A DNA stretch of 64,000 bases from Engraulis encrasicolus (lineage: Eukaryota; Chordata; Actinopteri; Clupeiformes; Engraulidae): contig NC_085867.1 of NCBI RefSeq assembly GCF_034702125.1, positions 49,303,898 to 49,367,897 of the forward strand. Reading direction: 5' to 3'. A model generated the notes under the pieces. It worked only from the letters and a program-made list of their open reading frames with translations, made no database searches and had not been told where the DNA came from. This document shows, piece by piece, positions 641 through 58,659 of the stretch (its first letter is position 1; each line of letters opens with the position of its first letter). The translations under genes were made by a program, and so were the position numbers.

Positions 641-650
641 GAGGTGTTAT

Positions 651-776: not shown

Positions 777-779
777 TAC

Positions 780-17348
<16,569 letters not shown>

Positions 17349-20247: not shown

Positions 20248-21864
<1,617 letters not shown>

Positions 21865-28337: not shown

Positions 28338-28690
28338 TAGCTTGGTTAAGCAATATCCATTGGCAGTTATCCAAAACAATCGTTCAGTTTGTGATACAAG
28401 CATGAAATTTGGTACACATATAGCCAAAGGTATTCCAAAAAGATTTAGATATGGAGGCATCATGAATTTTCAACATGGCGCCCATGGCAGCCATTTTTCA
28501 AAAATGGCCGTCAGCAATAACTGTTTTATTATGAGTAATGGATATAATATGATATTTTAGACATATTTACCATTCATAGTACTTAGTAAATGTCTTATAG
28601 ATAATTGAAAAGTTGTCATGAATATTCAAGATGGCTGCCATTTTCAAGATGGCCGCCATTTTCAAGATGGAAAGTCTGATATATGTGATA
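28338..28690. repeat. left terminal inverted repeat of the 14-kb element
   Basis: Matches the inverted sequence at 42100-42401; includes AATCGTTCAGTTTGTGATAC and two aagatggccgcc-like motifs. Confidence 0.75.
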
Positions 28691-30223
28691 TCGGTGTCAA
28701 ATCAGTAGTTTTTTATGATGCAGAATACAAATTTGGAACTTTGTAGTTGACCAGAAGCTTCCTTTTATCTCACTTTATCCTTAATGTACAGTATAGGAAA
28801 AACAGACGATTCGTTCAATGCATTTTTCCGATCGGACATTCCGTTCAAAACTTGAGACCATTCGTATAAGGCCTGGGGCATTTCGTAGAGGACGTTCCGT
28901 TTACCACAAAGACCTATTATTTTTAGGCAGTGTTGCCAGATTTTTGAAGACAAATAAGCGATCGACTGGTGTCTTAAAAACAAGCCCAAAAGATGGGACC
29001 GAAGACTAAAAAAAACAACAACAAAAAACAGTCATGTGCCGTCAGAGAAGACCTTGCTCGTTGCGAGTGTCTCTGGGGCAGTCTAGCTAAAATCCACGTA
29101 AGGGGCCGTGAAAGACACAGATAGTGGTACATGACAATGCTGTAGTAGGGTAACATGCAATGAGTGAGAATAACCGACTTGCCATTCAGAAACATTGAGT
29201 TACAAACATCCAAACACATTTCAATCACCGGCAGAGCAGAAGAGAACATCAAGGCCAACCCTGAAAAGAACAAGCCCAAAAAAACACAACCAGCGACTTT
29301 TTGAAATTTAAAGCGACTGCTCTGAAAAAGAAGTCATTGCATTGTGGTGGTAGGCACACACGTTTAATAAAATATAAAAATCATAAAAAATGGGTAGCCT
29401 GAACTAAACGTCTGCCCAGTTGCACAAAACGTTTGCATGGGTTGAACGGTACGTCCTTAGGTCTTCCACAAAACGTCTTCAGGTCCCTAGGCTTTCTACA
29501 AATGGTCTCAGGTTTTGAACAGAACGTCTGATCAGATAAATGCTTTGAACGAAACAACTGTTCCCCCTGTATAGTATCACTGTTTCTTTTAGGATGGCAG
29601 CCACATGGCCAAAATAACAATTATATTTGCAAGAAAACAGAGTTATTATCTATTTTGTTAACATTTGATCTATATCAGCAACAACTGAACCATTCGATGA
29701 ATGGACATGTAATAGAGTGGATGTTTAAGCACAGCCAGGGCACACTGGCAACACCACTGCTTTGAAACTCGTCATGGGGTTCAGTGCCAGCTAAATACAC
29801 TCCGCTTAATAATGCCATAGTTTCTGTTATTAATGTGCTGGTTGTGGTAATGGTTTAGTGGTAGTGTATATTAGTTTCCTAAATGCTATCTAATGTTAGC
29901 CCCACATCCATGTAGTTTACATTAGATGTAGTTAGATAGCCGCACCTGAATGGACAGGATGTGCCAGCGCGGGAGAGCCGAGCCAAGGGTAACGGGGCTT
30001 TGAATGACTTTCATACAGTTACCCGGATGGTGTACAGATCGCACAGGAATTAAATGGTACTGGATGAACGATCGGGCTAGGTGTAGGGCAATTATCCGAA
30101 CCTAGTTGTATCCCATACTTTAATGTGTTAATCTAGTAAAAAGTACTAAAAGTACAAGTAGTGAAAGGTGGTAAAAGGGTAGTATTTGTCTACCTCAAAC
30201 AACGTGTTTTGTCAGGTGAGAAA

Positions 30224-32306
30224 ATGTCTAAGAAATTCCAACTTGTGAATTTTGATGGTCAAGGACCACCAATTTCTTGCCCAGCCAAGACTGACTGGAA
30301 GCTCTGCATTATATGCCAAGAAAACACAGCAGAGGCATTGAGATGTCCTTTGCAGTCCAAGCGAGCAGACAAAGGGAGTGCTACACTTCACTTGCAGAGC
30401 ATGTAATCCAGTTTAATGAACTTGGCCTGCTCCCTTCAACATTTCAGATTGGACGACTGGATGAGGGTCATGGTAAAGAAGCAGCCATGGTTGAAAACAA
30501 AGCTATGTTGAAGAGAGCAAAAAAGCGAGCATGCAGTGAAAGTCCTGAGGAAGAATCAGAATGCAAACTCCGAAGGTCCCAGCCAAGTCGGGCTCCTGAA
30601 ATGAGACAAGACATCTGTTTCTTCTACAGACAGCCTGCTGGCAATGAAGGCCTTCGTGAGGCTGCAACTTTTCAATTGGACCAAAGGGTGCGTGCTGCTG
30701 CATCCCTACTTCAAGACACAGAGTTACTTGGACGACTTAGTGCTGGGGACATGGTGGCTATTGAAGCTAAATATCACTCCAAATGTCTAGTAGCTCTCTA
30801 TAATCGTGCCAGAAAAGCTAATTTAGAAGGTCTTGAAGATAATGGCCAGGGACATGCAGCATCAACCTCTGGTGTTATGTTTGCCGAGTTGGTGCTTTAC
30901 ATAGAAGACGCCAGACAACATGAGCACCTGTATTTAAACTAGCAGAACTTTCCCGGCTTTAAAAGGCACGAATGGAACAGCTAGGAGTAGAGGTTGATAA
31001 CGACTTAACTCTACAAGGCTAAAAGAAAAACTTCTTGCTGAGTTCCCTGATATGCAAGCTTACGCCAAGGGAAGAGATGTCCTGATGGCCTTTCAGGAAG
31101 ACATCGGCACTGCTCTTGCCAAAGCCTGTGAGCAGGATGACGACCAAGATGCTTTGCACATTGCACGTGCTGCACAGATTGTCAGCCGTCACATGTTTGG
31201 GGAGGCCAAACCATTTAATGGTTTTTCCGAACAATGCCAGAAGGACTCTGTGCCAAAGCTGTTGTTTACCCTTGTGAACATGGTCCTAGAAGGACCCAGC
31301 ATCAAAGACCAGATGGAAGAAGCAACCTCTCCTGCAGCAAATACCATTGCTCAGTTGCTCAAATTCAACAGTGTTAAGCACAAGCGAGCACCAGATACAG
31401 CAGCTTTTGTCAGACACAATACTGCACAGGAGACACCAGTTCCATTATACGTAGGACTGATGCTGCATGCCCACACACGTAAAAGGGAACTTGTAGATAA
31501 AATGGCACATCTGGGTTTGAGCATATCCTATGATCGGGTTCTTCATCTCTCAACTAAGATGGGGAACCATGTCTGTCAGCAGTTTCATAGAGAAAAAGTG
31601 GTATGCCCTCCACAGTTACGTGGCCATGTGTTTACCACGGCTGCTGTTGACAATATTGACCATAATCCCAGTTCAACAACAGCAAGGGATTCTTTCCATG
31701 GTACGTCAATGTCTTTCATCCAACATCCATCCTTCATTGGTGAAGGGACTGACCGCAGGCTTGATATACTTAGTGGGCCTGAGGGAGGATATTCAAAGAC
31801 CATTGCCCGTTTGCCAGCATACTACACTGAGGTCCCCCCTGTTGCTAGCAAAATCAAAGTCTCACATGTTCCAGAAAGCAGGCTACAATCACTCAATAGA
31901 GATGGCATTAGGAAACATACCAAGGAAGAGTACCAGTGGTTGGACAATGCAAGCGAGGTCATTGAAAATGAGAGCACTGCAAATTATTCATTGGATACAT
32001 CTTGGGCTGCCTTCCATGCTAGCCAGCAAACACAAGGAATTCGTGCCACATGTTCCACTGTTCTCCTTCCACTGTTTCATGAAAGTGCTCACACGGTGGC
32101 CATGATCAAGCATTCACTTGATGTCATAAGTAAAGCTGTGGAACACCTGAATCCTGGCCAGAGTCCAGTGGTCACATTTGACCAACCATTATACGCCCTG
32201 GCAAAACAAATCCAGTTCAAGTGGCCAGAGAAATATGGTGAGAATCAGCTGGTGGTTATGTTCGGTGGACTGCATATTGAAATGGCGGCACTGAAGATGT
32301 TGGGGA
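30224..32306 (+). pseudogene. Academ-like transposase, N-terminal block
   Basis: Starts at MSKKFQLVNFDGQGPPISC. A Cys-rich start (DWKLCIICQENT) and a later KYHSKCLVALYNRAR suggest a zinc-binding module of about 200 residues, split by a frameshift near 30373. Two further disruptions follow at 30925-31027 (frameshift and stop codons). From 31028 one frame runs to the insertion at 32310 and carries what I take as the first catalytic Asp (VDNIDHNP, 31646-31669, followed by RDSFHGT) and the second (VVTFDQPLYALAKQIQF), then GGLHIEMAALKMLGN. The same landmarks occur in the relatives at 33.6 and 54.9 kb. Confidence 0.65.
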
Positions 32307-32309
32307 ACT

Positions 32310-35300
32310 TAGTGTGGTATGAAGTGTCATTCCGTAGGATTTTTGTGCTAAAATTGATTTTTTTGCATGATTTGCTTTGTTTGGGGTCCTACTACTGAAA
32401 AATGATGGGTGTCGAATTTTCTGACCCCGTTATACCCCTCCTCTAGGGGGCGCTTTCTCGCCCTGGCCAGTATAGCTACCGAACCCATATCTCTGCTAAT
32501 AATGATCACATTTTCACAATCTTGGTGTCAATTTCAGGGTTATTGATGATGCTGAGTCCATTTATGACATTTTCATTTTGATCAGAAGTTGCTATTAGAC
32601 ATATTTTTGAGATTTAAAGGCTATTTTGTCCACCGACAAGCCTGCTGTGGGAGATATGACTACGATGGCATCTGTCTCATTGGATCTATGCACATCATAT
32701 ACATAATAAAGATTTCAATTTTATTAGGGTCAGTACTGTGAGAAAATAATGGGTTTCAAATTGATTACGCCTCCAGGGGGGTGCCTTTTCACCTCGGCCA
32801 GGATACGTATTGCAACCATAAATGCAGCAATAAAGATCCTATTTTCACAAACATGGTGTCAATTTAGGGGTTATTGAGGATCCTGAGTCCATTTATGGCA
32901 GTTCTAGTGTGATCAGAAGTTGCTATTACACATATTTTTGACATTTAAGGCTTGTCCACCTACAGGTCTGTTGTGGGAGTTATGACTACTATGGCATCCG
33001 TCCCATTCCGTTACCCAATTTTATGAACAGTTTCAGAGTTTTCTATATTTTTATTAAAATAGATGACAATGAAACTGAGCAGCTCAGTTTCTAATTCACT
33101 TTGTATAAGGCTTGGCCGATTGGCAATATCAGGAGAAAGAAATCGTGATAGAAAAACAAAACTGTTTAACAGAAGATAAGAATTGTCTACTTTTGTGTGT
33201 AGACCAAAGGTTTCCAACGCTACCAGAGCAACTTAAGTTATTATTTCTCTATGGAGGGTCGGGGAATAAAGTAACCAAAGTGAGTAATTTGTATTGGCAG
33301 TGACTACCAAAGAATAATTGGACTCGAAAAACGAATAGGACAAGGTGTTCTGAAATGCATGAACAAGTCGGGTGGGTGTTGTTTACCTGATTTTGTTTAA
33401 AGTAAATGTAAAGTAAATGTTTGGTTTGCCATTTACTGTACAATTTTCTTCTTGGAGCAGGCATCACTCTTAATTATTTGAACCTCTGAGGGTGCTGGAA
33501 CAAATATTAAATTCAATGTTTCAAGAAGGAGGCTGCACCTTGCATAGCAGTGTTTTTTATTGCACAAACATGTTTTGGCGTGTGCCTTCTTCAGTATGCA
33601 ACCATTTACTGTACAACCTTAAACTCCTAGAAAACACCTCACGGGACAGAACACCTTCCATGGCACAGTGCTTGTAATGAATCAAAGAGATGAAGATTTA
33701 GTTGCCGTCAACCAACTCCTTGTCATCCCTGAGAAGCTCCCCACATCTCCCCACATGCACCACATTTGCAGCTACCAATCATAAGGACTAGGCCAGTTCA
33801 ATGTACAACTTTCAAACAAAGAAATGTAGACAACACTGTTTCCAACGCCTTCACTCTTACATGGGCACTTGCTAAATATTTAGCAACAGATGCAACCAAC
33901 AGTATAGCAGCAGAATGTACAGAATAGGAAACTGACCGTGATTATCTCATTCTGTCCATAGATGAACAAACACCCAAACATGCCAAGAAGTTGGTAAAAC
34001 ATGAAGTTATCCATAGTTGGACAGCCACTAAATCTCTACTGATATCCCTGCAATCTGAGACTTATCGCCTGACAAACTCAGAGATCATCGCTCCACTTTC
34101 AAGACCTACCTTAAATTATGCAACCCATTTTCTGTTCTGATGTTGACACAGGGAATCACTGCTGTTTTAGTAGGTCCTGAGAGGAGAACTCTCATCATCT
34201 CTGATCTTGACCTTTTCCAAAACACCTACGAGCAGGTGTTATGCACATAGGTACAGTATGTAGTGCTTGCTGCAATGCATGCTCTTGGCAAAACAACTGA
34301 TGCAAGTGGCATTGACACATGCTCAATTGAAAGAGATTCATACTCTTCAGCAGATCTCCATGGAGTCTTTGGTGGGAAGCATACAAGTGGGCCCTTGAAT
34401 ATCACATCACAACTAGTCTGGCTATTATGATGACAAGATTTGATGCCATTTCCTCTGCTCATCCCCTTGAATCCATTCAAGTCCAAGTGTGTGGATATCA
34501 ATGAGGCTCTGCATCTGCACAGTCCAGATGCATTGCAATTGTACAGTAACACCCAGTTCTATTTGGAAACCTCTTCAAGCAGAAGACACTTCAGAGTTTG
34601 CTCAGTTTCTTGTACAACACCTGTAAGAGCAAGTGGTTGTCGTCCAGTGGACTGGGCATGTTATCTGGCTGCCTTGATGAACCTTATCAAGTACTTCTTT
34701 GCATATGATCTCCTGAGTTATGCCCGCCTCTTGGCAGTCCATCTTGCTCAAATGAATGCTTTGGAACAAGATGATCCTATTACATGGGATGCTCTTGGGT
34801 AAGGGGATTTTGTTGCGTCAAAATCAAAGGTTCCCTTTACTCATTTGTTCACAGATCAGAACCTAGAGCATAAAGGAAAATGAAGGAACTTCATGGCGGC
34901 AAAGTAGGACTGAGTCAGGATGCCACTGCCCATGTCTTGTCACCACAACACCACATCTTGCTCATATTGTGATGCACTATTTGGACAGCTTCCCTCAACC
35001 CAGCAAGTCTGTGCTAAATGAACACTACCAGCTTACGGGAGATGTTGCCATCAAGGGCAAAAGCTGTGAAGATGCAAAATTCAATTGAGCTCTACAGGAC
35101 TGGCAATCCATAAATGTCTCCCTCCATATCATAACTGATGAAGCTAGCCTCATGCATGCTGTTGAAAGACTACAGGTGAAATGCTGGTGTCCCTTCGAAT
35201 GACTGAACCAGGAATAGTTCTAATTGTTGATGCTATGGCTGAAACTGGAGTTACATCTGATCATATCTTGAAGTGATATAGTGTATTTCCTTGAGCCTAA

Positions 35301-36355
35301 GTGCACCTGTTTAGGAGAAAAAATGAAGCAGCAATGCTTAATGACCAGCACTCCTCAGTGCGGGCTGTTTACTATTCATGTTCATGATATTTTGTATAAA
35401 TGAGTTGATATTACCATTACAGTACATGATCTTTTTTTTTACCTCAAAAAATGTTAAGGTTGGAATGTTATAAATGGTTGCTTAAAATGGTAAAAAAAAA
35501 AAAAAAAGTCACTAGGCCTATATGAAACACAGTTACTGTTGTTGTTCACACACAAATTACATAGCTGGTCAGCATCATCTTCCTGAGTGCACACAACCCC
35601 CTCTGGTTGGTTAATATTTAGTCTTTATTTGAAGAAGATCCTGGTATATTCATTTTCAATCGTGTTATTGACAAGTTTGACAACTCTTTGCCACTACCTA
35701 AAAATGAGTCATAACAACTTCTGATCACACTAGAACTGCCATAAATGGACTCAGGATCCTCAATAACCCCTAAATTGACACCATGTTTGTGAAAATAGGA
35801 TCTTTATTGCTGCATTTATGGTTGCAATACGTATCCTGGCCGAGGTGAAAAGGCGCCCCCTGGAGGGGTAATACATTTGAAACCCATCATTTTCTCACAG
35901 TACTGACCCTAATAAAATTGAAATCTTTATTATGTATATGATGTGCATAGATCCAATGACACAGATGCCATCGTAGTCATATCTCCCACAGCAGGCTTGT
36001 CGGTGGACAAAATAGCCTTTAAATCTCAAAATAGCCTTTAAATCTCAAAAATATGTCTAATAGCAACTTCTGATCAAAATGAAACTGTCATAAATGGACT
36101 CAGCATCATCAATAACCCTGAAATTGACACCAAGATTGTGAAAATGTGATCATTATTAGTAGAGATATGGGTTCGGTAGCTATACTGGCCAGGGCGAGAA
36201 AGCGCCCCCTAGAGGAGGGGTATAACGGGGTCAGAAAATTCGACACCCATCATTTTTCAGTAGTAGGACCCCAAACAAAGCAAATTATGCAAAAAAATCA
36301 ATTTTAGCACAAAAATCCTACGGATGCTGTTTTTCAGACAATTCATATCACACTA
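32310..36355. mobile_element. nested Academ-like element, 4.0 kb, TSD ACT
   Basis: Starts TAGTGTGGTATGAA and ends in its inverted copy; ACT flanks both sides (32307-32309, 36356-36358). The inverted arms match over about 650 bases (32310-32960 against 35715-36355), with internal copies of gaaaatgtgatcattatta-like motifs. It carries its own decayed transposase, so it was an autonomous or formerly autonomous relative that jumped into the transposase gene of the outer element. Confidence 0.72.
33640..35270 (+). pseudogene. decayed transposase of the nested Academ-like element
   Basis: Short frames carry landmarks of the same family: NTFHGTVLVMNQ (compare RDSFHGTSMSF of the host element), YDLLSYARLLAVHLAQMNAL (compare DHTHYARWIPVHLRDM) and FTHLFTDQNLEHKGK. 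Many stops and frameshifts; clearly dead. Diverged from the host transposase, so a separate lineage, closer in style to the relic at 54.5 kb. Confidence 0.6.
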
Positions 36356-36358
36356 ACT

Positions 36359-37922
36359 GGTTGCATGTAAGTGGTTGGGTTGAAGCATTAGCACAAGCTG
36401 ACATCTCATCTCAAGGGAAAGCTGAGTCCTTTCTCAAAGCAGCCCATGTATCCCGCACCAGACGAGCCCATCAAATTACAGCAACATCTCTGTATATTCT
36501 GCAGCGCCGGGCTTATGACAACTATTGTCAAACACAAACAGATCAAGTTCCTCTAGCGTTTGGAGACTGGTGTAGCCAGAGAGCAGAAAACATCCCACAA
36601 TTTCAGTACTGGTTTATTGTTCTTGAGCTAGAGCTTCTTGTGCTAGTTTTTGTACGGTCATTGCGAGAGGGGTCTTTCTCCATGTATCTTGATGCATTAA
36701 CAGAACTAGCTAAATGGTTTCATGCAATGGATCATACCCATTATGCAAGATGGATTCCAGTTCACCTGAGAGATATGGCTGAACTACCAAGGACACACCC
36801 AAGCATAGCTCAAGCGTTCAGGGAAGGCCATTTCACTGTCCAGAAGATAACAAATGTGTTTTCCTCCATGGCCATTGACCAGGCCCATGAGCAGATGAAT
36901 GCTTGCATCAAAGGAGATGGTGGTGCGGTCGGGCTGACAGGCAACCCATCTGCTTTATTGCAATGGATGGTAGCAGGGCCAGAAGTTGCCCGATGCATAC
37001 AGGAGTTTGAGATTGGTTCCAAGAAATCGGATAACACACGTCACCATGACCAAACAACAAGTGTCCAGGTTGCATTCATCAAAGATGTACGCTCATTGGT
37101 CGGTGCAATGGAACATTTTGGAAATCCATTTGAAGAGGAAAGCAAGGACCTGATTGTTCTCCACTCAAAGGAACTTGCTGGACCTACAGCCGCTGAGACA
37201 GTCAGAAAGGTGAAGCAGATAGGAGAGCTCCAATTTGAAGCTTTCACTAGAGAGTGCCTTATTGATAGAACGAAGCCAGTGGATGACAGCATACCAAGAA
37301 ACAAGCTAAAGGTATTTGGTGCTTCAACTGTGCAGAGTACATCAAAACAAAAACAGAAACTGGCCTCTCTCAAACAGGACATGGTGCTCTTTTCAAGACT
37401 ATACATTGCTTTTCAGACCAGAGATGGAAACTTACATGAGTTCTTTCGACACGAGAACCAGTCATATCCACCAGCACTGTCTGATGGGGGAGATCTCCGA
37501 CTGGGACAGAAGAGCGATCTGCTTCCATGCCTGGAGCAAGTTCACAGTGCATACTCTGACAGTCCAAACGTTACCTGTACCATTGTAGATGGGGCAGCCA
37601 TCATCCAGATGCTGAAACCAAGCGCAGTAAAAACCTTTGATGACTATGCCCATGTGATCTTCATTCCATATCTGACCAGAAAACTTGAATGTGTGTCGAG
37701 ACTTGATCTGGTGTGGGACCGCTACCTGAATGAGTCTCTGAAAGCTGCAACAAGAGCCAAGCATGGGAGCGGGATTCAGAGACGTGTGGTGGGTGATGCA
37801 ACCATCCCCAGCAACTGGCAAAACTTCCTTAGAGTTGACGGCAATAAGACTGAGTTGTTTGCCTTTCTCTCAAATGCTCTGCTCGGATCACTGGTGCAGG
37901 AAGATAACAACCGTATCACGCG
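36359..37922 (+). pseudogene. Academ-like transposase, middle block
   Basis: Open for about 520 codons. Continues the N-terminal block: after removal of the 32310-36355 insertion and one copy of its ACT duplication, codons join in frame (GN-W-LHVSGWVEALAQAD). FSSMAIDQAHEQMN carries the probable catalytic Glu. Further conserved text: HVSRTRRAHQITATSLYILQ and HYARWIPVHLRDM. The block ends at the second insertion. Confidence 0.65.
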
Positions 37923-40646
37923 CCAGTCGTAAAGTCTTCACGAAAAAAATGTGGGAAATTCTGAGGGAAATTCTGGGGGAAATTCTAGGCAGAATGTACA
38001 AGGACGTGGTGAATTCACGATATTGCCCGTGTTTCGTGGTTGATTTACGGTTTCAGTCTCGTGGTTGATTTACGATATGCATTGAAAACTACGTGGTTGA
38101 TTTACGATATGCATGCGTTGGCATTTTTGCACAGGGGCGGGGACCGGGACCGGCCGCGACAGAAAAGAACCAGGGAACGGTGTGGCAGCTTTTGTGATAT
38201 GCACCGGAATTCTCATCCGCCCTGTATCTGCTTGTAGACGATATGCACTGGAATTCTCATCCGCCCTGTATCTGCTTGTAGACCGAGTAAAGTTAAGTAC
38301 AGGGTACAGTGATGTATCTGCTTGTAGACGATATGCACTGGAATTCTCATCCGCCCTGTATCTGCTTGTAGACCGAGTAAAGTTAAGTACAGGGTACAGT
38401 GGGGTAAATCAGTTAAGTACAGGGTACAGTGGGGTAAATCAAATATACCTGTGTAACAATTCGGTTCCTGCCATTGTCCCACATCGCTTGATTAGAATTC
38501 CGGTGCATATCGGTTCCTGCCATAGCCTACATTTGTCCCACATCGCTTGATGAGAATTCCGGTGCATATCACAAAAGCTGCCACACCGGCCGCGACAGAA
38601 CACTGCAGATACATTCCTTTGATCAAAGTAGCCTACATCAAATGCACTGTAGCCATGACAGAACCGGCCGCCTCCCGATTTAAAACACCGCTGATAGCCT
38701 GATTACACTCATGCCCGTAGCCCTACTCCACACCGCTGATAGCCTGATTACACTTCATTTTATTATTGCCCGTGTTTCGTGGTTGATTTAAGATTTGAGT
38801 CTCGTGGTTGATTTACGATAGGCCTATGCATGCGTTGGCATTTGAAAACTACGTGGTTGATTTACGATATGCATGCATGTAGTCTACATCTTCTGTTTAA
38901 AATGACACGGGGAGGGAGTGACATAAGCCGCCTCCGGATTTAAAACACCGCTGGTAATTACACTCCTGCCCGTAGGCTATCTTTGAATTTACATGAAGCC
39001 GCCCACCGGCGATTTGAAGCCACGGGTAGGACTACTGCGACAGGGCGGTGGGTTAGCGAAAATCCTTCCCAAAACATTTTATTATTGCCCGTGTTTCGTG
39101 GTTGATTTAAGATTTGAGTCTCGTGGTTGATCTACGATATGCATGCGTTGGCATTTGAAAACTACGTGGTTGATTTACGATATGCATGCATGTAGTCTAC
39201 AACTTCTGTTTAAAATGACACGGGGAGGGAGTGACATTTGTGACACACACACTTTGAAAACCACTGGGCAAGGTGGTGACTAGGCCTACATCAGCATCTT
39301 TCAGAGAAAAGGTGAGTAGGAGTGGTGCATCAGCATCAGTAGCATCAGCGTCTGGGACCCACCGCCCTGACGCAGTAGGCTACATATGCATGTGGATACG
39401 GGCAGGAGTGTAAATTCAAAGATAGCCTACGGGCAGGAGTGTAGCCTAATCACCAGCGGTGTTTTAAATCGGTGGGCGGCTTCATGTCACTCCCCGTGTC
39501 ATTTTAAACAGAAGGTGGAAATCAGGAAGATGCGCTGCCATTCATCAGCTGCCAAAACACGTTTTAGTTGTAGACTAGCCTACATGCATGCATATCGTAA
39601 ATCAACCACGTAGTTTTCAAATGCCAACGCATTCATATCGTAAATCCACCACGAGACTCAAATCTTAAATCAACCACGAAACACGGGCAATAATAAAATG
39701 TTTTCGCTTTTCATTGCACCTAACTCCTCACTCCGATATTTTCATTGCACCTACCTCCTCATTCCGATAAAGGAGGCACGAGGGGCTACTTATTTATTCA
39801 ATCGTTATTTTATTTTTTTTTACTGGGAAGGAGTAGGCCTACGGGCATGAGTGTAATCAGGCTATCAGCGGTGTTTTAAATCGGGAGGCGGCCGGTTCTG
39901 TCATGGCTACAGTGCATTTGATGTAGGCTACTTTGATCAAAGGAATGTATCTGCAGTGTTCTGTCGCGGCCGGTGTGGCAGCTTTTGTGATATGCACCGG
40001 AATTCTCATCAAGCGATGTGGGACAAATGTATGGCAGGAACCGATATCGATATGCACCGGAATTCGGCTATATTTGATTTACCCCACTGTACGGCAGGAA
40101 CCGAATTGTTACACAGGTAGGCTATATTTGATTTACCCCACTGTACGGCAGGAACCGAATTGTTACACAGGTAGGCTATATTTGATTTACCCCACTGTAC
40201 CCTGTACAAGGCGGATGAGAATTCCGGTGCATATCACAAAATTGTTACACAGGTAGGCCATATTTGATTTACCCCACTGTACGGCAGGAACCGAATTGTT
40301 ACACAGGTAGGCTATATTTGATTTACCCCACTGTACCCTGTACAAGGCGGATGAGAATTCCGGTGCATATCACAAAAGCTGCCGTTCCCTGGTTCTGGTT
40401 CTGTCGCGGCCGGTCCCCGCCCCTGTGCAAAAATGCCAACGCAAATGCCAACGCATGCATATCGTAAATCAACCACGTAGTTTTCAATGCATATCGTAAA
40501 TCAACCACGAGAATGAAACCGTAAATCAACCACGAAACACGGGCAATATCGTGAATTCACCACGTCCTTGTACATTCTGCCTAGAATTTCCCCCAGAATT
40601 TCCCTCAGAATTTCCCACATTTTTTTCGTGAAGACTTTACGACTGG
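37923..40646. mobile_element. 2.7-kb near-complete palindromic element, TSD CGCG
   Basis: Starts CCAGTCGTAAAGTCTTCACG and ends in its inverted copy. CGCG stands at both edges (37919-37922, 40647-40650) and, kept once, restores the host reading frame. The outer arms match over about 300 bases; inner sequence is again inverted around a centre near 39.28 kb, with many shared units (cgtggttgatttacgatatg, gatatgcaccggaattctca, acaccgctgatagcctgatt). No coding capacity. Superfamily unclear; the 4-bp duplication differs from the 3 bp of its Academ-like neighbours. Confidence 0.75.
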
Positions 40647-41580
40647 CGCGAGATAGGGCTCAAGATAAACAGCTTGTTATCACTAGTGACATGGAAGTAC
40701 TTAGCAAGCCACCACTCTCAGATAGGTCTTCGATTGCTCCTTGTACACATGAGGAAGCTGATAGTCGCATGCTACTACACGTAGCCCATGCAGCAAGAAA
40801 TGGCCATCATAAAATTATGATTCACACGGTTGATACTGATGTTGTGGTGCTAGCTGTGGCAGTGGCTCAGAAGCTACAGGCAGAAGATGAGCTTTGGTTG
40901 GCTTTCAGAACAGGAAAGAATTTCCGCTACTTAGCAGCCCATGAAATTGTAGCAGGGCTAGGGCCTGAAAAGGCACGCGCACTACCAGTGTTCCATGCAT
41001 TGACGGGTTGTGACACTGTGTCAAGCTTTGCTGGCCATGGGAAAAAGACTGCGTGGGCTGTATGGGCTGTGTTTCCTGAGCTTACACATGCCCTGTTGAA
41101 ACTGTCTTCAGCCCCAAATGACATACCACAGGAGATAATGACTACAATTGAGAGGTTTATTATTTTACTCTATGACCGAACCAGCACATGCACAGAAATA
41201 AATACGACAAGGAGGAAGTTATTTGCAAAGAGGCCCAATTCAGAATCAATTCCTCTTACCAAGGCTGCCCTGGAAGAGCATGTGAAGAGAGCTCTATATC
41301 AAGGAGGCCACGTGTAGGGTCAAGTGCTGGTATCAACACCAGAACTACCTTCACCATGCAAATGGGGCTGGTCAAAGACATCAGAAGGGGACTATGAACC
41401 CTTCTGGACCTGCCTACCAGATGCAGGTCAGTCCAGTTATGAACTCATCACCTGCAAATGTAAGAAGGGCTGCGTTGGGTAGTGCAGGTGCAAAAAATCT
41501 CAGTTACAGTGCACTGCTCTCTGTTTATGTGAAGGCGAGTGTGAAGAGTCGTCCTTGTGATAGACCTAAAGCTGGGTTCA
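40647..41580 (+). pseudogene. Academ-like transposase, C-terminal XPG-like nuclease and Cys-rich tail
   Basis: The frame resumes exactly at the CGCG target duplication (R-DRAQDKQLVITSD). Then CTHEEADSRMLLHVAHAA, IHTVDTDVVVLAVAVA and FHALTGCDTVSSFAGHGKKT appear in the order and spacing of the acidic motifs of XPG/FEN nucleases (E-EA, DxD, GxD followed by a helix-hairpin-helix-like stretch). The frame stops at 41315-41317, and a Cys-rich tail follows in another frame (CKCKKGC, CRCKKSQLQCTALCLCEGEC) with one stop inside. Function is lost. Confidence 0.65.
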
Positions 41581-42099
41581 AACCTCTATTCTCTTCTATT
41601 CTAGTGTGATCTATTGCTTCACTTTGGTTGCACCGGTCAGCATTGGTAAAAGAATCATGCCCAGTTTGAATCAAGGCAAAACACCCAGGCAGTCCCAACT
41701 CCAAACACCAAAATTCTGTCTGTCTCCAGACAACATCAATGTTGATTGGCTGTCAGGACACCACGAGTGGAGTTCACGTCATTTGGCCACCCCGGACCCC
41801 TTTTGGATCATTTGTGCTGCCCCCGTTCTCGCTTTGCTCATTTGTGTGTCGTCTTGTAAATTGAATTCACTTTGAATGTAATGATGTCGCTTGAACCATC
41901 CAGGTTTGGACACAGCTTTAGGTCCGGCTTCACTTACAACTTGAGAGCTAAAACGTTTGTAAATATATAAATAAAAATAAAAATAAATAAAAACAAAAAA
42001 CAAAAAAGTTTTAAAAAATAATTAAAAAAAAAAAAACAATGAAAAGAAATTGCATGAAGAAAAATTTATATTTTGACACAGAGGTCATCCGTATGTAAC

Positions 42100-43322: not shown

Positions 43323-43354
<32 letters not shown>

Positions 43355-45084: not shown

Positions 45085-45526
45085 GTGCTTATGTCCCTTA
45101 GCAGTAATGTTGTCATTAATCTGTGCAACTGATATAGAAAATGTGATTGTTGAGCTTCATAAGTAGGATTTTATGAGTCACTGTGATACAGACTGACACA
45201 TTTTTCATCATAAATCCCTGTAACGTCTGATTTGAATATAGTCACCCTCCTTACACAAGACTTCCTTCTCCAGAGATAATCCCTAGTGTATGTTCATAGG
45301 ATTTTTCCAACACATAAGGGATCAATAGCGCAAAAACACTTTCAAAACGGTCAACCGTGTTACTCAACTGTGTTACGGTAAACAGTGCAGGGGAACAAGT
45401 CGGCACTTTTTTAGGAGAAAAAAACAGAGCAGACAAACCCATCTCCCTTGAACACAAATTATTTTGTTTGTTTGTCTGTCAATATGGATATAAATTGGCA
45501 AAAACATACTCCTCCTCAACTGTCAT

Positions 45527-45713
45527 CAGTGTTGCCAGATTGGGCTGGTTCCCGCCCAATTGGGCTGCTTAGGATGGCCGTGTGCGGGTAAAAATGGCAT
45601 CTATCAGAAAAACCTTCCCACTGCCATATAAATCAATAGAATTGGGCGGGTTTTTAGGGCGGATTTTGATCATTTTTTGGGCTGGAAATCATCAGCCTCA
45701 TCTGGCAACCCTG
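45527..45713. mobile_element. hAT-type MITE with perfect 8-bp TSD
   Basis: 187-bp element from CAGTGTTGCCAGATTGGGC to CTCATCTGGCAACCCTG, flanked by ACTGTCAT twice (45519-45526, 45714-45721). Confidence 0.88.
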
Positions 45714-45721
45714 ACTGTCAT

Positions 45722-48690
45722 ACTTAATTATAACACCATTGACGGTAACACCGTTGACATTTCAGCCATTTTTATGGTGTTGTGCTAACTGAGGACCTCA
45801 GAAGTTCCACCACAACACCTTAATCAATTCATGTATCTGTATGCTTTATCTGTGTTTTTCTACATGTGATTTCTAATTCAGATTCTTATGAATATGTTGA
45901 TAACACAGTTGACAGGCAATTTTCCCGCTATGAGAACATGAAAAAGAATGGATTAAATTATGGAAGGATGGAGCTCAAAATTTACCAAAAAGTATTCCCG
46001 TATCCTGCCAAAGAGGTTATGACATCACGTGATGTTATTCGTATGGCCTAAGACCAAACCATTACTGATTTATGGAGGAGGTTTCAGACCGTGACACGGT
46101 TAACACAGTTTTCGTGGACACACACAAAATGGCAAATTTCATGTATAATGGAAAGGACAGTGGTCTTTCTGACAGTTTTGTCATATTGTGATGATTACTG
46201 TGAATCAACATTTGCAATCGTCTTGGGCAAAACAAGTTTCTTTACATGCTAATATGAAGACTGAATCTGACATTTGGAAAACAGGACGGCATGAAAATGC
46301 CCAAAACCAGTATTAAATATTCATTCTTGCTGAGGGAAATAATGCTATGTCTACACTTTCTGTATTATATGAAAGATAAATGTTTTCTAATGTCCAAAAC
46401 ATCATTGGATGCAGTTAATAGTTAGTGGAATTGCCAAATAAAATCCAATGACTTAAAAGTGTAGGCGAATTAGAGAATCACTCATATACTCCTTAGACAC
46501 ACATCTGTTGAAAGGCATGCAGGCCACTAGAAATCCAAGATGGCCGCCCATTTTCCTAGGTGGCCACCATATGTGTAAGGCAGTAGCGGCTGGTAGTCTG
46601 TCAAACAGGGGAGGCTGTTCAATTACAATATGTCCAGAACGCAAAAAAAAAAAAAGGGGGGGGGGGTCAATTTTGACACACACCTTATATTGGTCCTGTC
46701 ACATATGGCCTGCCCTCACACACTGAAGGACTCTTGTTGAAACAAATTTGTTAATCATTAATCATTATCCCCCTTGTAGCCTATTCATAGGGAAATGTTT
46801 TCATCATCATTATTATTCATTAGGCCTACCTCCGCCACATAATGATGTGATTGAGTTTGCCTTCGTTGTCTTTGTTCATTACTGGGTGCACGGCTTAACA
46901 GCACAGTAGGAAAGGACTCGCCACTCACGGGACTTGGCAGTTAACCAGTTGATCAGACACCACGAAAGCTCAAAAGAAAAGTTTGTTCTTCCCTACCTTT
47001 TTCACCAAGTCAATATTAGGCAGTGCTCTGCTCTGCTCCTTGATATTCATTTTCTCCTCATAAGGACGACTGGAATTCGCCAGAATTTAATCCACAATGC
47101 TTGGCATTTCATTTTGCATAGCTCTCTAGCTTTCTTGCAAGCTAGCAATAAAGAAAAGTATAGGCAACCTCAACTTTTGAATTGGGAGATTAAAAAGGAT
47201 AAGGACGTGCCACTATTAAGACTTTATTCGCAACACTAGGTTTACAAGAATATGTACACAAAACTGGAGTACAACGCAATGAATAGCTTCCCAACTGGTT
47301 ATCACGACGAAACTTCTCAGTCAAATTAATAACATATCCGCATTTCGAAATGAAAACAATTACTGTAGCCTACTGACACGGGGTTCACCCAATCACAAGT
47401 CGGAGCTCCAGTCTCCGGTCCCTCCCCCCTCCTCTCTCTTCTCCATTCACTCCCAGTGAGGCTCAGTCTCAAAATTAAAAAAATTTCACGGCAATAGCCA
47501 ATGACCGTTTAGCATTTTGCCATTGAAAAAGCGCACAATCCCACATGCCATTGAAGTCCATTGAGACTCGACTTGCTTGCGTTGTCATGAGCGGAAAAAA
47601 AAAAACTCGTGCGAGCTTCGGGATCTTATTACAGATTGGTTTAATCTCTAAGTTGAGCACATGCATCTATGGAGCTGGGTCTGAAATAGCAATGATATTA
47701 AGTCGTGTAAAGCATTAGTTTACATACTATTTCTCCGTGATTTTGGACAGGAGGCGGCGCCTCCCTTGTACTCAAAGAGGAATCGCCTCTGGTGTAAGGT
47801 GACTGAAACATTTGATAATTAGTGATACAAGCATCCCACTTGGTACAAATACTCCATGACATGACAAAAAGATCAACAGCTAACAAAATATGGACCTGCA
47901 GATGGCTATAGCTGCCAGTGTGAGTATAGAGTTCTTCAGTAACGCGGAAGCATGTAGTAGATTGTAGTCTTTCATGTTAGCATTTAAGGACTTCCTGGTT
48001 CGTATCGGCTTCCGGCTTCCATTGGGAATGAATAGGGGTAAATTTCAAATAAGCTCCGAGTGCAAGCACGCGCTTAGCGAACCCCCGCAAACTGTCGAGG
48101 GTGTTAAAAATAGGCTGTAGGTATGACATGGTTGATCATTTTGTGTCAAACTTCGACATAAATACGATGTTGCGTCCATATGCTAAACCCGGAAGCTTTT
48201 GGCGACTACAGAAGCGGCGCCTGTATCTAACGGCATGTACGTGCGGAGGGTTGTACCCATGGCAACCAAAGGAAAGTATGTAGTTCGGAAGTTTTAATGA
48301 TCAGGAAGGGGTTAGCAATATTGAATTATAATCGTCATGATTTAACATGTGAATACACCAACATGATGATACGATCCGTTCCACTAATGAGAAAGGGATG
48401 CGGGGACACGCTAATGTTCGTTGTTGCCGTGCAACTTATATTTTTGCCAAACCTGAATCTCTATGGCGTTTTGCAATGTAAAAAATCGCCATCGAACCGG
48501 AAGTCCAAACGCCGCATACAAGTTGACGTCAACGCTGAAGAGCTCTATTGGGACATTTTAAAATTCCTATACAACAAGATAATCTAAATTCATCAAAGGG
48601 ATTATGGTAATCTCTCAAATGTCCTCAAATCAGAGATTATGAAATATAGCCATATGGTAGCCATATTGGATTATACATGGCCTTGCCATG
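45722..48690. other. interior of the 9.4-kb element, no gene recognised
   Basis: Contains subterminal-repeat copies near 46470-46570 and 47815-47890, a GC-rich repeat bounded by cagtagcggctgg (46573) and ggcgcctccc (47753), and a dispersed GC-rich block at 47980-48260. Small frames here look non-coding. Confidence 0.4.
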
Positions 48691-50127
48691 TTTAAAGTGG
48701 AAATGAAGCACTGACAACTATTATCATTTTTTGGCGGCTTATTTATTTTCATAAACGAATGGATGTTCATTGAACTGCACTTTTAAGTAGTTTTGCTGAA
48801 AAATGACATGTTATTACCGAGTTTCGCCACAAGGGCGCAGCCATGTTCGCCGCCTACGTAACGCGAATGGTAGAACTTGGTGGCTAATGTAGCCTTCCAT
48901 TCACTTAACGTTAGCGTGTGCTAACTACAGCGCTAACTGACTCGAATCGTGGCAGTAAAATTGAAGAAGGACGAGGGGTTCATTTTACATTGTCCCTGGG
49001 TTTTCTATGTTATATACCTACTATCAGATGAAAGAGAAATGCCAAGTGTCATTATCACTTTGTGTCAAAAAGCCTTTGCTACGAGCATGGTGGGATAGCT
49101 GCAGCCATCCACCCATTGCATCCACCATAGGACAGGAGTCAGGACTGGGGCTGCTCGATCTCATAGGTTTGTAGTGACAGACCGTCATCAATAACGTCTT
49201 TTTCCTGCATTGTTGGACGCTAATCTGAAAGCCCATGTCTTTAAGTTGGCTATGTGGTTCAATTCAGTAATAGAAAATAACTTGCAAAATTGGCGGAAGT
49301 TTGGAAAGCTTTGTGAAGGGAAGGGACGCAGCCTGTGTGTGTGGCTATCCCATCCCCTCTCTCGTCTCGCTCTCGGAGTTGGAGGAGCTTTGGGGATTTG
49401 AAGTTGATGCCACGGGAAATGACACGTTAAACTATCATGGCCTACATTAAGTTATGGCATGCTTAAAGTAGCTGCATCTATTGTAGTAAATTATTATGTT
49501 ATTGAAGTCGCGGATGCATCCTCAAACTGGCTGGAATAGCGTTGTTGCCTTGGATTATTGTTGACTGGATAACACCGATAAACGTGGGCACGGAGATGTC
49601 AAAGTAGCCTAATTCAGGTGCTTGGAAAATGTTGGCGAAATCATCGGAAGATGAAGGTAGGGAACTGCAACATTGCACGACATCGCACGATTATGAATAG
49701 TGATCATGTTGGCTCATACCAAAATGTGTTAGCGACTTGTCACCTTAGCAAAAAAAAAAAGCTGCTTGTTTACCTGTGGTTCATGTGATGGGATGTCTTG
49801 TCTGCCTTCATGCCTCATATTTGTTCTGTCCCACCCAAACACGTATTCTTGCTTCATTTGGGTTAAGCAAATAAGCTCATAATCAGCCACGCAAGTCCCA
49901 AATGTTTAATTCACTACTATCATAACAGCATTAGAATAGGAGACTACCATTCGCGTGACGTCACCCGCTGTTGACTGGAAACGTTAACAGAAACGTTACG
50001 TTGTTTGTGCTTTATTTTTTTATTAACGGCTTGAATTTCAGACTTCAAAAAAATATGTATATTTGCTGGCTTATCTTACTGGTGTTATAGACCCCTATAT
50101 TAGGTCACTGCTTCATTTCCACTTTAA
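48691..50127. mobile_element. inverted-repeat element, ends TTTAAAGTGGAAATGAAGCA
   Basis: Perfect 20-base inverted ends plus gtgac/gtcac just inside. About 1.44 kb; no transposase seen. Could be a solo non-autonomous DNA transposon. Confidence 0.6.
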
Positions 50128-50959
50128 AGTAGGCCATTTTTTTCAAAAAGGATAATGTCTAAGGAGCATTTGTGCCGAGTTTGGTGCTTCTATCACAATT
50201 TGGAACTTCTGCAGTAGGTGAATGGGTGGCCATCTTGAACTTCAAATGGTCCATACACCATAACAACAGAGTTGTGTCTGCAGAGTATTTGTAACACGTT
50301 TGGTGCTCACATCACTATTTGAACAATTGCTCTAGTATCTTTCTGGCAGCCATCTTGGAAAATGGGCGGCCATCTTGAATTTCAAGTGACAGGCATGCTT
50401 TTGCAAATTAGTTAAGTCAAAGGAGTATTTGTACCAATTTTGGTGCTTGTATCCTTATTTGAACAATTGTTTTATTTTACTATGAAACATCTGAACTTGG
50501 AAAATGAATCATCTTGGAAAAGTCACCTGCATGCTTTAACAAAAGAGGTACATCTAAGTAGCCTAGCGAGCCAGACCCGTACAGCAAAAAGCTGTACCAG
50601 GGTCTAGGAGGGCTGGGCGGCAGTGTGGGCGGGATAAACGGTTGCTTCAGCACTCAACGCCACGCAATTGGATGGCAAACAACCAATCCCCACACACTTC
50701 TGTGTAACGTCACAGCTGTCTTGTGAAGCGGCAACTCCGAGCCGTCGTAGCAGTGAATGCGTGTGATGACCACAGCCACAAACAAGTTTCCTAATAAATC
50801 GTGTTTTCACTTACATAGTTCAAAAATGCCTCGTTTTTAACCACACGGCCCTCCTTGATCAACCAGCGAAATGTTGAGCAATTTGGGGCTTGTTAAATGG
50901 TTATATTTATGATTGTTGTCAACATGGCATGTCCTGTGTTAACTAGCTAGCTGTATACC

Positions 50960-51310
50960 CATAACTAATACACGGCTGGATACCTACCTCTGTGTAATTG
51001 ACGACAGATTGGCTAGCCGCTAGCTCGGTAGACTAGGTGTCATTCCCATCTATTTAGTAAGCGACTTACAGACTTTCAAAGCTCCCAAATGTCTCGTTTT
51101 TAATGACATGGATCTTACTATAATTTGGGGCAGGCATATAATACAAGGCTGGATACCTAGCTCTGTGTTACTGACGACAGGTTAGCTAGCCACTAGCTTG
51201 GTAGACTATGTCATTCCCATCTATTTAGTAAGCTACTCAAAGACTTTCAAAGCTCCCAAATGTCTCGTTTTTAATGGCATGTGTCTTATTAGAAATTGGG
51301 GCAGCAATTT
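50960..51310. repeat. two-copy tandem repeat, unit about 175 bp
   Basis: Two successive copies share gctggatacc, gtcattcccatctatttagt and caaagctcccaaatgtctcg. A third partial copy lies near 50815-50840. Confidence 0.8.
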
Positions 51311-51892
51311 CATTCTACACCTACAGTAGTGGTCTGATAATAGCATGTGACTATCTGGTTCTGTAAAATGCTCAACTTAGCTTACCGAGCTAGTTTAAAA
51401 CATCGAATGATCAAATGGTAATGTGTTGTGATCTATTTGTGTCCAATAAGTTCATGGTGTATTATTACATCAATCCATGTCAGACACGAAATGTATTATC
51501 ATCCAGGCTTTTTAAATTAAGTGAACACTTTCGTGCTGTACGTAGCACGGACGGACACCATGCTTCTTCTTAGAAAGTTTCCTGTTTACTAAGTAGCCCG
51601 GCCCCCCTCGCGATTTGATTGGCCCTGTCATCGGATAACTTTCAGCCTCGCAAAACGACTGGGGTCCGCTAGACTGCCCCCGGGAGCAAATTCAATTTGC
51701 GGTCGCTAGGGGCGTCGAGTATCCGTACCAAGTTTGGTGTTTGTATGGCGGCCATATTGGAAAATGGGCAACCATCTTGAATTTGAAGTGGCCCGCGTAC
51801 TTTTTGATAATAGTAATGTCTAAGGAGTATCTGTACCGATTCTGGCGCTTGTATCACAAACTGAAGTATCGGGTCACCTATCTCCCTAGCTA

Positions 51893-53909: not shown

Positions 53910-54517
53910 TAGTCTAGACACATTTTTCATATTTGTGAATGTTAGAAGCATTTTTTAGTAAAAGTTGGGAACCTATGTACTTAACATAATTTAAGTGTGC
54001 TGAATTCAACTAGACTGGTTCCCAAGCTGGATTTTGAGGTTTTGACAGTTAAATTTGAAAAACAAAATGGCTGCCAAAATATGCGATTTTTGACAGAGCA
54101 TTTTTACCAAGTATTGCTGTACTTGGAAATAAATGCTCTTTTCTAACATTTTGTGTCCCATTAATGTTTCTTGATGAATGTGTCTACTATAGAGGATTTT
54201 AAAAAGTATCAAATAGCTTCTAGAATGCTAATAATGCTAATATTGTAGGTGTTAGCCTACACGTTTCAAATATTTAGCTTTTCTAATAAGATATTTGTAG
54301 CCTATGTGTGTTTATATGAAAATGTATATAAAGTTTATATAAAGAAAATTGATGTAAGTATTTTAGAAATACTTAGCATAATGTGAAGTATTTAGTGTTT
54401 CCAAAAAATCACTGAAACTTGCTATTGGCACTTTGAAAACTGTCCAGAAATCGCTAGATGACACCATGATGTTACATAGCCTATAGCATAAGTAATTATT
54501 TTGTGCCATTTTGAAAA

Positions 54518-56175
54518 GTGTTTAGACATAAATTAAATATTCTATCAGATGCTATTGCAGACATTCCAGATAGTCTATACATGCTCCTCAGCCTGGTTGT
54601 TAGTGGCCAGACATCTCTTGAAGATGATGGAATTGGTGGCAAGGAAAAACAAAGCAGAGTTCTGAGTGAGGCTAAAGCCCTTGTTTATTGTGTCAGTGAT
54701 GGCAAAAAAATGGACTCCTTATCAAGCTATTGGGTAAAAGACCTAATACGACTATTCAACCAGGCAGGTCATTGTCTGAGTTACGACCAGGTCCTCCAAG
54801 TCCAGGACCTCCTTAGCTGAGAGCACTCTAAAAACACTGAACCAAGACAGTGGTGCCATTATTCCAACAAACATTGCGGCAGATAAATTCATCCACTACA
54901 CATGTGATAACATTGATATCCTGGATAAAACACTTGATGGGAAGAATACTTCCCATGCAACACAAATAGCAGCATGGACAAGAGGCCAACCAATTGATGA
55001 TTCTGTTAAAGATATAGAGGTGTCCACTAGACATACATTAAATGTGCCAAATGCCCTGATGGAGCTAGGATTACTCCTAGGACATTCAAACCAACTTTTT
55101 CAGCACCCATTGCTGAATCATGCTTTGGCAAATCTGGAAAGGAGCACACGTATGCTAGACAAGCAAAGGCTACGGGTCTAGCTTTCTTCTTGCACCTTCA
55201 AAACTTAGACATGAAGACTTCTTGGTCAGTGTTCAATCAGTCACTGTCATCAAAGGAACAACAGACTGCTGCGGGGTATTTGCCAATAGTCCTCGCTACT
55301 ACACAGGATTTTGATACTTTGAATACAGATGCATTGTTATATCTTCACATTTTGGACAGGAACATAGCGTTATCACAGTTGACCAAGCATTGTACTGCAG
55401 ACTTAGAACAACAAATGAATACCTCGCCTAGGAGGACTTCACATGTCAATGAACTGTCCTAAGGCCATAGGAGAACATATGATTGGTTCTGGACTGACCA
55501 ATGTATGGATGGTGGATTGCTTGGATAAGGCCCTGTTGAACTTGTTCTGGCAGGAAAGGCATATAACAAAGCCATGGCACACAAGTTGACTCTGCAATCC
55601 ATTTAGGGTCTTCTCATGCCAAGTCTTCTATACCTGTCTTTCTAGGATGGCTAATGGTGATGATCCTCAGACAATTAGTGAACTGATTTCATTCCATGAT
55701 CAGGAAAAGGACAGAAGTCTTCTGCATGATATTGTTGAGAGTCAATCTGATGATGTGAACTGGTGGCAGTATATGGATATGGTTACTGTTCTGCTGCAAT
55801 ACACAAGAGCACAATGTGAAGCTACCTGGGATCTTCATTTTCACTCTTTCAGCCTGATGTTGCCCTACTTTAAGCGGTATGACCATCTTAATTATGCACA
55901 ATGGGGTCTGAATTCCAAAAAGGCCACTTTGTGGTCAAGAGATCGGCTCACAAGTTTAGCCAGATTCTGATCAGGCTATGAAGTGGGTTAATGTCACAGG
56001 TAATAAAAGAGCATCATTGTGATCACAGAGACAGCCTCAGCTTTGTGTAGGTGGACACTCTCTTTTAACCTGAGATCACACATTGCAGATCAAACATTTG
56101 GAATGTACAGTGTCCTCCATGGCAGCAAGAAACTTCACAATGACAGAATCTACTCACGGCAGATTAGAGACGATA
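54518..56175 (+). pseudogene. decayed Academ-like transposase
   Basis: Pieces in several frames follow the order of the 31-37 kb transposase: HCLSYDQVLQV (compare LSISYDRVLHL), YTCDNIDILDKTLDGKNTSH (first Asp), LGGLHMSMNCPKAIGEHMIG (compare GGLHIEMAALKMLGN) and LPYFKRYDHLNYAQWG (compare HYARWIP). The frame is broken at about 54818, 55070, 55460 and later. No XPG-like domain is visible, either lost or never present. Confidence 0.6.
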
Positions 56176-56879
56176 CCAAGTAAAAGTTCTTTACACACAT
56201 TTGTGCGTACCCGGTTCCTTGGACTCACGTCTCCTGACTGAGTTCACGAGTACCCTGAACGACACGAGTTACGAGAGCTTGACTAGTTCTAGCCCGCTCT
56301 GTCCCTTTGTTCTCTTGACTATGGTCGACTGCTGGCAACGCATTTCAGTGGAGTCAGACTCTGACTCCCCTCTGGCAAAGCGCTCCGATCTTCCGCCTAC
56401 GGTGAACGACTCTTTATCCCAACTCCCTGCCTCCCAGAGAATCTCATACAGCAGGGACTGACCACCACCCTAGTGGCTGATGTGGCTTCCCCAGCTCGAG
56501 CAGCTGCCTCGGAGCCCCTTGGGCAACCGCAGGCCACTGCACTTTGCATGAAAGCGCACCCTGTCACCAGACACGGCGCGCTTGTAGACTCCAAAAGTCC
56601 TGCATAATGCACCACGGGGCTCAGGGGCCTCAGCTGAGAGCGTAGGGGCTTCGCCCCCTCCTGCTACTTTCCCCTCGCCCGTAGGTTTGAGTCTGGCTCC
56701 GGACCAGGAGGAGGACATGCCCCAGCCCAGGGGCCACCTGCCCCTATGGGTCTGGCAAGGGAACATTTGAACCTAACCAGTTTTCTGGATAACGTTATCA
56801 GGACAATTCAAGGGGCCAGGGCCTAATCTACTGGGACACTGTATGAAACTGAAGTGGTCTGTCTTCGAATGCTAGTGTG

Positions 56880-57506
56880 ACCAACGCGACAAGACAACTT
56901 TTCAGTGTTCAGTACCGACGCTGTTGTCCTTTCTACAAGACTTCCAACACTCTGAGTGCCCATCCACTAGATACTTGCGCCCCGTGCTACGTCAGACAAT
57001 TACCCCCTGGGATATCTCTCTAGTACAGGAGGCTATGTGTGGGGCCCCTTTTGAGCCCCTCCAAGAGGGGCCCCTCCAAACTGCTTTTGCACACCACCTT
57101 TCAGATCCGTGGAAGAGAGGTGACAACACAACTTGTGCCCTGTGCACGCTTTACGCATCTACATGAACAGGACTCACTCTTTAAGGAACACTGAGCAGCT
57201 GTTTGTATGCTTCATCAAGCCCTCTACAGGGCTCAGAGTTTTGAAATAGAGGTTTCCAAATAGTTGGTTCAAACCATTGCCCTGGCATACGAGTCCAAGG
57301 GTCACCAACCCCCGGCTCAGATTAGGGCTTACTTTACCAACGCGGTCTCTACATCTTGTCCTCTCTTCAAGGGTGCAGCAGTTTCAGAGGTGTGCAGAGC
57401 GTCTGGTTGGGCCAACCCCGCCACCTTTGTCCGGCTCTACCGGCTAGATGTGACCACGTTGCCAGGGGAATATAGGGTTCTGGGCAGGACCACTGATTGT
57501 CTGTAG
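56880..57506 (+). pseudogene. DIRS-type tyrosine recombinase relic
   Basis: Frames at 56924-57166 (ITPWDISLVQEAMCGAPFEP) and 57264-57506 (PPAQIRAYFTNAVSTSCPLF, SEVCRASGWANPATFVRLYR) read like the C-terminal part of the tyrosine recombinase of fish DIRS retrotransposons. The conserved His and Arg of the active-site block are replaced (Y and N) while the Tyr-bearing FVRLY remains, and several stops and shifts occur. Sequence from about 56200 may be its upstream ORF, but I could not confirm that. Inactive. Confidence 0.65.
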
Positions 57507-58659
57507 GGTGATGGAATGCTATCCTTAGGGCCAAAACATACCAAGGCGGAACGGAACGGTCGCGGGACGAACGCAGTCTTTCTGCTTAGTTTTGGCCGGT
57601 GTGTTTTTCTCTGCCTTTCACACTGACAGCGTCGGTGTGCGCGGCCAGTCCTGTTTAACCCCCCCCACAGCTAAAGCTAGCTGCTACTTTGTAATTCATT
57701 TGAATGAGACACCGCCGGTCGTGAAACGGCGTGAAAAGTACGCTCAAGTTCTATTTTCCAAATGCAGCGCCATGCCGCTGATGCCCGACTACCGCCGGTT
57801 AGTGTGTAAGGACAGATATGTTTCAATGTATTTTCACCGACGCCGGTAAAAAAACGCGTCCGTTCTGCGACGCTTTACCGCCCTGGTGTTTAAGACCCCT
57901 TACCGTGCGAACACAGCGCCGACGTTCAACGTGTGGAAAGATGCAGAAGTAACTGACTTTGTATGGGAGAGGAGGCGGCAGAAGCGTGAAAAGCAGCAAA
58001 CGTCATTCGAAGAGAGGTTTGGCATCAAAGTGGCTTATTCACATGCAACCGTTCGGTTTTGACAAAGTGGACATCCCGCCCACGACACAGTTGATTGGAC
58101 CTTTGGCGTGATTGCAAAGGTCTTCAGCTAATCGTACAGCTGAGAGTGTGCTCCCATAGAGATGGACATTCATGTCCTAATATTTAGTCTTTAATTTAGA
58201 TAATACTATCTTCTTTCTCTCTCTTCTTCTTTCCAAATCTTATTGAATGACAAATGTGTATGATGATGTGCTTTTACAGAGACTATTACTATTGAATGCC
58301 AGTTTACGAGGATATCACATTAAAAAGGCATAATTATAGTTATTTTTATCTTGTTGCCATGACATTTTGCCTTTGAGTAAGTGTAGGAATACATGTTGAA
58401 TGCAAACATGTGAGCATTGCACATTTATTTCCATGGAGAAGTGGTACTTTCTAACGCATTCTGCCCAAAATCAAGAATTTCGGCGGCCATTTTGTTTTTT
58501 GCTCATTTCATGGTCAAAAACTCAAAATTCAGCTTGGGAACCAGGCTAGCTGAATTCGGGGTACTTTAATTGTCTTAGAAAACTAGGTTCCCAACTTTTA
58601 CTAAAAAATGCTTCTAACACCCTTATAAAGGGCCTTTTTCTGGAAATGCTTCTAGTCTA

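Follow-up and report, generated by a model that had tools for sequence, protein, structure and literature searches.

Introduction

Antibody gene assembly follows the 12/23 rule, whose origin from transposon ends is still discussed. RAG signals and ProtoRAG elements have paired ends with unequal spacers of 12/23 and 27/31, respectively (PMC8289069), and the Drosophila P element has bipartite ends with an unequal spacing of 9 versus 21 bp (PMC7776569). Among Academ transposons, AcademH elements make 9-10 bp target duplications and encode a helicase, and AcademX elements make duplications of 3-4 bp and encode a nuclease (PMC10045372); these descriptions, like those given below for known systems, refer to excerpts of the cited sources. 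Here, we describe four elements, E1 to E4, in a 64,000-nucleotide stretch of Engraulis encrasicolus DNA (GCF_034702125.1, contig NC_085867.1, positions 49,303,898 to 49,367,897), referred to as the window. We are confident that all four belong to the little-studied AcademX branch and are DNA transposons of the cut-and-paste type, with bipartite ends that combine one long and one short spacer. Such unequal spacers, which recur in nine lineages, are new for AcademX ends.

The window elements share paired ends with unequal spacers with all three systems above, and differ from each of them. RAG and ProtoRAG have 5-bp duplications, CAC tips and RAG1/RAG2-type proteins (PMC8289069), while the P element has a THAP domain, a GTP-binding insertion, no nuclease and 8-bp duplications in place of the 3 bp found here (in part, PMC7776569). 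Galileo, of the P superfamily, has long, internally repeated arms, as do E2 and E3; its transposase carries a THAP domain, and the excerpts of its description report no unequal spacers (PMC3688188). In the literature that we searched, likewise in excerpts, no account of unequal Academ ends was found. That search did not include Kojima 2020, reportedly the main Academ paper and the one that deals with the AcademX branch.

Results

All four elements begin with TAG, end with CTA and are flanked by a 3-bp target site duplication (TSD), and the borders and flanks proposed in an initial annotation of the window are exact to the base. E1, which carries a transposase gene, occupies 28338..42401 on the plus strand (TSD AGC). 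E2, of an AcademX lineage, lies within the E1 gene (32310..36355, plus strand, TSD ACT) and has inverted arms of ~620 bp. E3, a non-autonomous relative of E1 with several nested insertions, occupies 42459..51892 (no strand assigned, TSD TTA), and E4, again of an AcademX lineage, 53910..58659 on the plus strand (TSD GGT). TAG/CTA ends with a 3-bp repeat occur in four of the 41 inverted-repeat pairs of the window, and these four are the outer pairs of E1 to E4.

It could be argued that these ends were selected by chance from among many possibilities: when the 80 bp beyond the long inverted arms were scanned, a TAG/CTA pair with a 3-bp repeat was found once each for E1 and E2 but twice each for E3 and E4, a point that speaks for such a selection. 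However, the same 80-bp scan gave such ends in 1.5% of random pairs of places (n = 4000), none of 1500 random sets of four had a 3-mer tip type common to all members, and genomic copies favour the annotated borders over the single rival border in E3 and in E4. We rejected the E4 rival (53915-58654) since TAGTC and TAGAC are found again beside it in the fetched copies.

The copies come from a search of the host genome (1.43 Gb, with the window on contig C11). Exact matches to the E3 tip number 99 (reversed control, 0); with at most two mismatches the E4 tip has 291 matches, and with at most one the E2 tip has 53. Convergent tip pairs were taken irrespective of end type and counted by eye. Outside the window this gave 25 of 27 E3 pairs, after exclusion of two longer than 15 kb, and all 12 E2 pairs; for E4, 20 pairs at the head of the tip list (first 100 of the 291 places) were used. 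Together with E2, E3 and E4 themselves, the survey covers 60 copies of these three families. Copies were called intact if both ends fit the long or the short type over the full length with at most 20% mismatch, as in 53 of the 60; in the remaining seven, at least one end had no match. When the intact copies were checked for other ends or missing duplications, the outcome favoured the annotated ends, and 43 of the 53 had a perfect 3-bp duplication at the predicted tips (E2 9/11, E3 16/22, E4 18/20). Thus, tips are shared among copies while the duplicated sequence differs, and a chance origin of the ends, to which we assign next to no probability, is refuted.

Duplication at an empty site was also found for E2. 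When its flanks are joined with a single ACT, an open E1 transposase frame reading GGLHIEMAALKMLGNWLHVSGW results, in which GGLH and SGW are 22 residues apart. Measured without fixing the distance, GGLH and S.W are separated by 22 residues in 111 of 111 measurable E1-lineage homologs (38 of 149 GGLH homologs have no S.W within 60 residues). Because the two distances agree, the 3-bp duplication of E2 is supported independently of the E2 ends.

The tip shared by E1 and E3 and the tip relics near 47.8, 50.2 and 59.0 kb, noticed in the initial annotation, are real, with eight matches (at most one mismatch) against a chance mean of 1.4. As a correction to that annotation, E1 and E3 owe their bulk mainly to later insertions: without three recognised inserts, E1 measures ~6.5 kb, and members of the E3 family that have two ends and a TSD can be as short as 1153 bp. 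The proposed targeting of the elements by each other was abandoned as unsupported: E2 alone is nested in one of the others, E3 and E4 lie next to each other, and insertions by elements of different kinds are present here too.

From the outside inwards, each end has a short tip that starts with TAG, a spacer and a long inverted block. The left and right spacers are 40 and 19 nt in E1, with the left end on the 5' side of the gene, 21 and 31 in E2, 29 and 19 in E3, and 31 and 41 in E4, again with the left end on the 5' side of the gene. The two spacers therefore differ by 21 nt in E1 and by 10 in each of the other three. One long end is paired with one short end in 53 of 53 intact copies, including a 375-bp E2 derivative.

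An expectation of a difference of ~10 was formed from the window elements and their copies before the flanks of seven further transposase loci, with open frames of at least 1400 aa and picked from 88 matches, were fetched. In all five of these lineages whose ends were resolved, the difference is 9-11: 41/31 in C7 (TSD TCA; with an alternative candidate border the difference is likewise 10), 41/32 in C16 (TSD TAT), 30/19 in C8 (TSD ACA), 22/32 in C1151 (TSD TAA; a second candidate has a poor tip) and 20/30 in C1 (TSD TAT). The sixth locus, C12 (G000:C12:46446163-46447719), is the closest E1 relative and lies in an open frame of 1591 aa, with 93% identity to E1 over the searched piece; its ends were not resolved, with a 19-nt end on one side and, on the other, the nearest TAG 22 nt out without a TSD. 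In the seventh, C1094, the fetched flank pieces contain no inverted repeat. Overall, fixed unequal spacers at both ends, as in the 12/23 type, were found in nine of nine resolved lineages among eleven examined, with a difference of 9-11 in eight and of 21 in the ninth. The difference corresponds to about one helical turn, and to two in E1, so that a long end and a short end are combined in each element. With spacers uniform over 0-44 nt, five of five differences at 9-11 would have a probability of ~1e-5, a value that applies to lineages that are not fully independent; for the four window elements alone, a spacer test gives ~1e-3, post hoc.

Is this difference functional? We regard it as possible, if rather doubtful, that the elements are AcademX transposons as already described, in which a functionless difference between the ends of an ancestor was simply inherited. 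Several observations favour inheritance. Copies of one family have both ends in common by descent, and descent alone could yield the 53/53 pairing. The ends of E1, E3 and C1151 are related, as are those of E4, C7 and, in part, C16.

By contrast, a difference of 9-11 is kept by eight of the nine resolved lineages, even as gene polarity, spacer sequences and the tip sequence after TAG vary. By BLAST, the ends fall into about five groups unlike each other (E1/E3/C1151, E4/C7/C16, E2, C8 and C1), with C16 tied to E4 and C7 by 18 bp only, and the new transposases are 27-44% identical to that of E1. The gene has the long end on its 5' side in E1, C7, C16, C1151 and C1 and on its 3' side in E2, E4 and C8, E3 being without a gene. 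To the eye, the long tips of E4 and C7 resemble each other (TAGACTAG), as do their short tips (TAGTCTAG), but gene orientation is opposite. Thus, the conserved feature is the long/short pair, while its polarity relative to the gene varies. We lean slightly towards a pairing rule, in which an AcademX transposase would join only a long to a short end, offset by a helical turn and with either end beside the gene, analogous to the 12/23 rule.

The protein encoded by E1 comprises, by homology and predicted fold, a DDE transposase, an Exo1/FEN1-type nuclease and a cysteine-rich CXC tail. All parts of the gene are on the plus strand. The N-terminal part (30224..32309), in which frame changes break the reading frame, extends up to the E2 insertion and contains the D1 motif AVDNID (31643-31660) and the D2 motif TFDQPLY (32174-32194). 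The continuation (36356..37932) covers a helical insertion, the Glu motif DQAHEQ (36877-36894) and the start of the nuclease, with VDGAAI (37585-37602) and LVWDRY (37708-37725). The second part of the nuclease (40667..41314) includes HEEADSR (40748-40768), VDTDVV (40829-40846) and TGCDTV (41003-41020), and the C-terminal part with the CXC tail (41318..41557, profile positions 798-872) is preceded by an in-frame stop and has another inside. The nuclease region is split by a later insertion (37911..40658, no strand assigned) that is highly palindromic, with long inverted repeats and a possible 7-8 bp duplication, AAGATAA. A small inverted-repeat element lies in the left part of E1 (28796-29567).

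In the DDE part, the D, D and E motifs are conserved and an RNase H-like core with a helical insertion is predicted. Among the families in the VIA lists, which the fold comparison of the DDE model covered, the P element transposase is nearest, and E1 is predicted to belong to the P/hAT/RAG fold group; Foldseek alone gave no usable match for this model. None of four E1 pieces passed a Pfam cut-off. Pfam scans of E1 pieces and homologs gave no THAP domain, with the full N-terminus lying outside the fold model, and PDB sequences searched with the nuclease piece yielded no significant hit (best E 0.87). E1-type proteins are widespread in animals. No relatives were confirmed in viral and prokaryotic contig collections, in which matches to a 17-nt tip (6 and 25 stretches, respectively) were rejected as chance, most being ~17-24 bases long and the longest 39 at 82%.

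As the initial annotation had proposed for three of the elements, E2 and E4 contain transposase relics homologous to the E1 gene. The E2 relic (34257..34874, plus strand; best match 34596-34874) matches the E1 profile at E=1.5e-8 (best tblastn 1.8e-10), and pieces of the E4 relic (54515..55978, plus strand) match it at E=8.4e-7, 3.2e-4 and 0.019, in both cases colinearly and on the same strand. Reading through the E4 relic leads to 67 relatives, including P0282, in which the match to the E1 profile extends across nuclease and tail (E=3e-148); an 8,989-bp E2-family copy, L088 (TSD GTA), also encodes nuclease and tail. Transposase profiles match 8 of 12 fetched copies of E2, 9 of 20 of E4 and 0 of 25 of E3, and E3 itself yielded no relic with the E1 profile (nothing at E<=1) or by tblastn. 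On these sequence comparisons, E1, E2 and E4 come from diverged lineages of one superfamily, and their transposase genes have decayed; E3 is related to E1, is non-autonomous and has been enlarged by later insertions.

We assign E1 to AcademX because it combines a nuclease and a DDE transposase with 3-bp duplications, the traits given for that branch (PMC10045372). AcademH, of the same superfamily by name, is set apart by its helicase in place of the nuclease and by duplications of 9-10 bp rather than the 3 bp seen here (PMC10045372). The assignment, which refines the initial view of an Academ-like superfamily with several lineages and a large multidomain protein, is set by domain make-up and duplication length as described for Academ, and is putative to that extent. 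It is improbable that the elements instead form a separate superfamily akin to Academ in fold only. Such a separation would fit with a kinship drawn from described traits, and with DUF6589 as the only Pfam label for the E1-type region, a label unmentioned in the literature searched. Against it stand the shared nuclease and 3-bp duplication and the wide distribution of the family in animals.

Several other features lie in or near the elements. Within E3 are a hAT-like element (46581-47791) with CAG tips and an 8-bp duplication, GTGTAAGG, and an inserted element (42681-46484) whose ends, TATGAGTGATTC...GAATCACTCATA, are inverted and whose duplication is TA or ATAT. The motif AANATGGCNGC, which we take to be YY1-like, has 18 matches in the window, between 28487 and 58493 (chance mean 0.48), of which 15 are in the arms of E1, E3 and E4 and none in E2. 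A GC-rich stretch in E4 (56200-58060), with a sub-threshold HTH_18 match only in Pfam, may be a tyrosine-recombinase retroelement relic. Outside the elements, long inverted repeats at 229-9531 (229/8108, 1613/9531, 2094/5571 and 3042/5038) have no TAG/CTA ends with 3-bp repeats, Pfam identifies a Tc1-type transposase at 20467-21213 (minus strand), and retroelement frames at 60288-63082 encode aspartyl protease, reverse transcriptase and RNase H.

Discussion

Insertion creates the 3-bp duplication beside the TAG tip. In the model that we suggest, the catalytic part of the transposase would, most likely, meet this tip while another part binds the inner inverted block, which probably holds the transposase binding sites. 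We propose that one end would need an extra helical turn owing to asymmetry in the paired complex, with the ends of P elements and of RAG or ProtoRAG as precedents. Flaps or hairpins in DNA intermediates may be trimmed by the nuclease.

These elements add a further transposon group with a 12/23-like asymmetry of its ends, represented in one genome by several lineages with long open frames. They thereby make it possible to test why the ends used by transposases are unequal, and whether this trait is ancestral or convergent. The TAG tip, the 3-bp duplication and the unequal spacers are, moreover, simple signatures by which AcademX elements and their non-autonomous copies can be recognised. If the proposed pairing of long with short ends is true, it would, together with P elements and RAG, mark unequal paired ends as a trait general to DDE transposases with a helical insertion.
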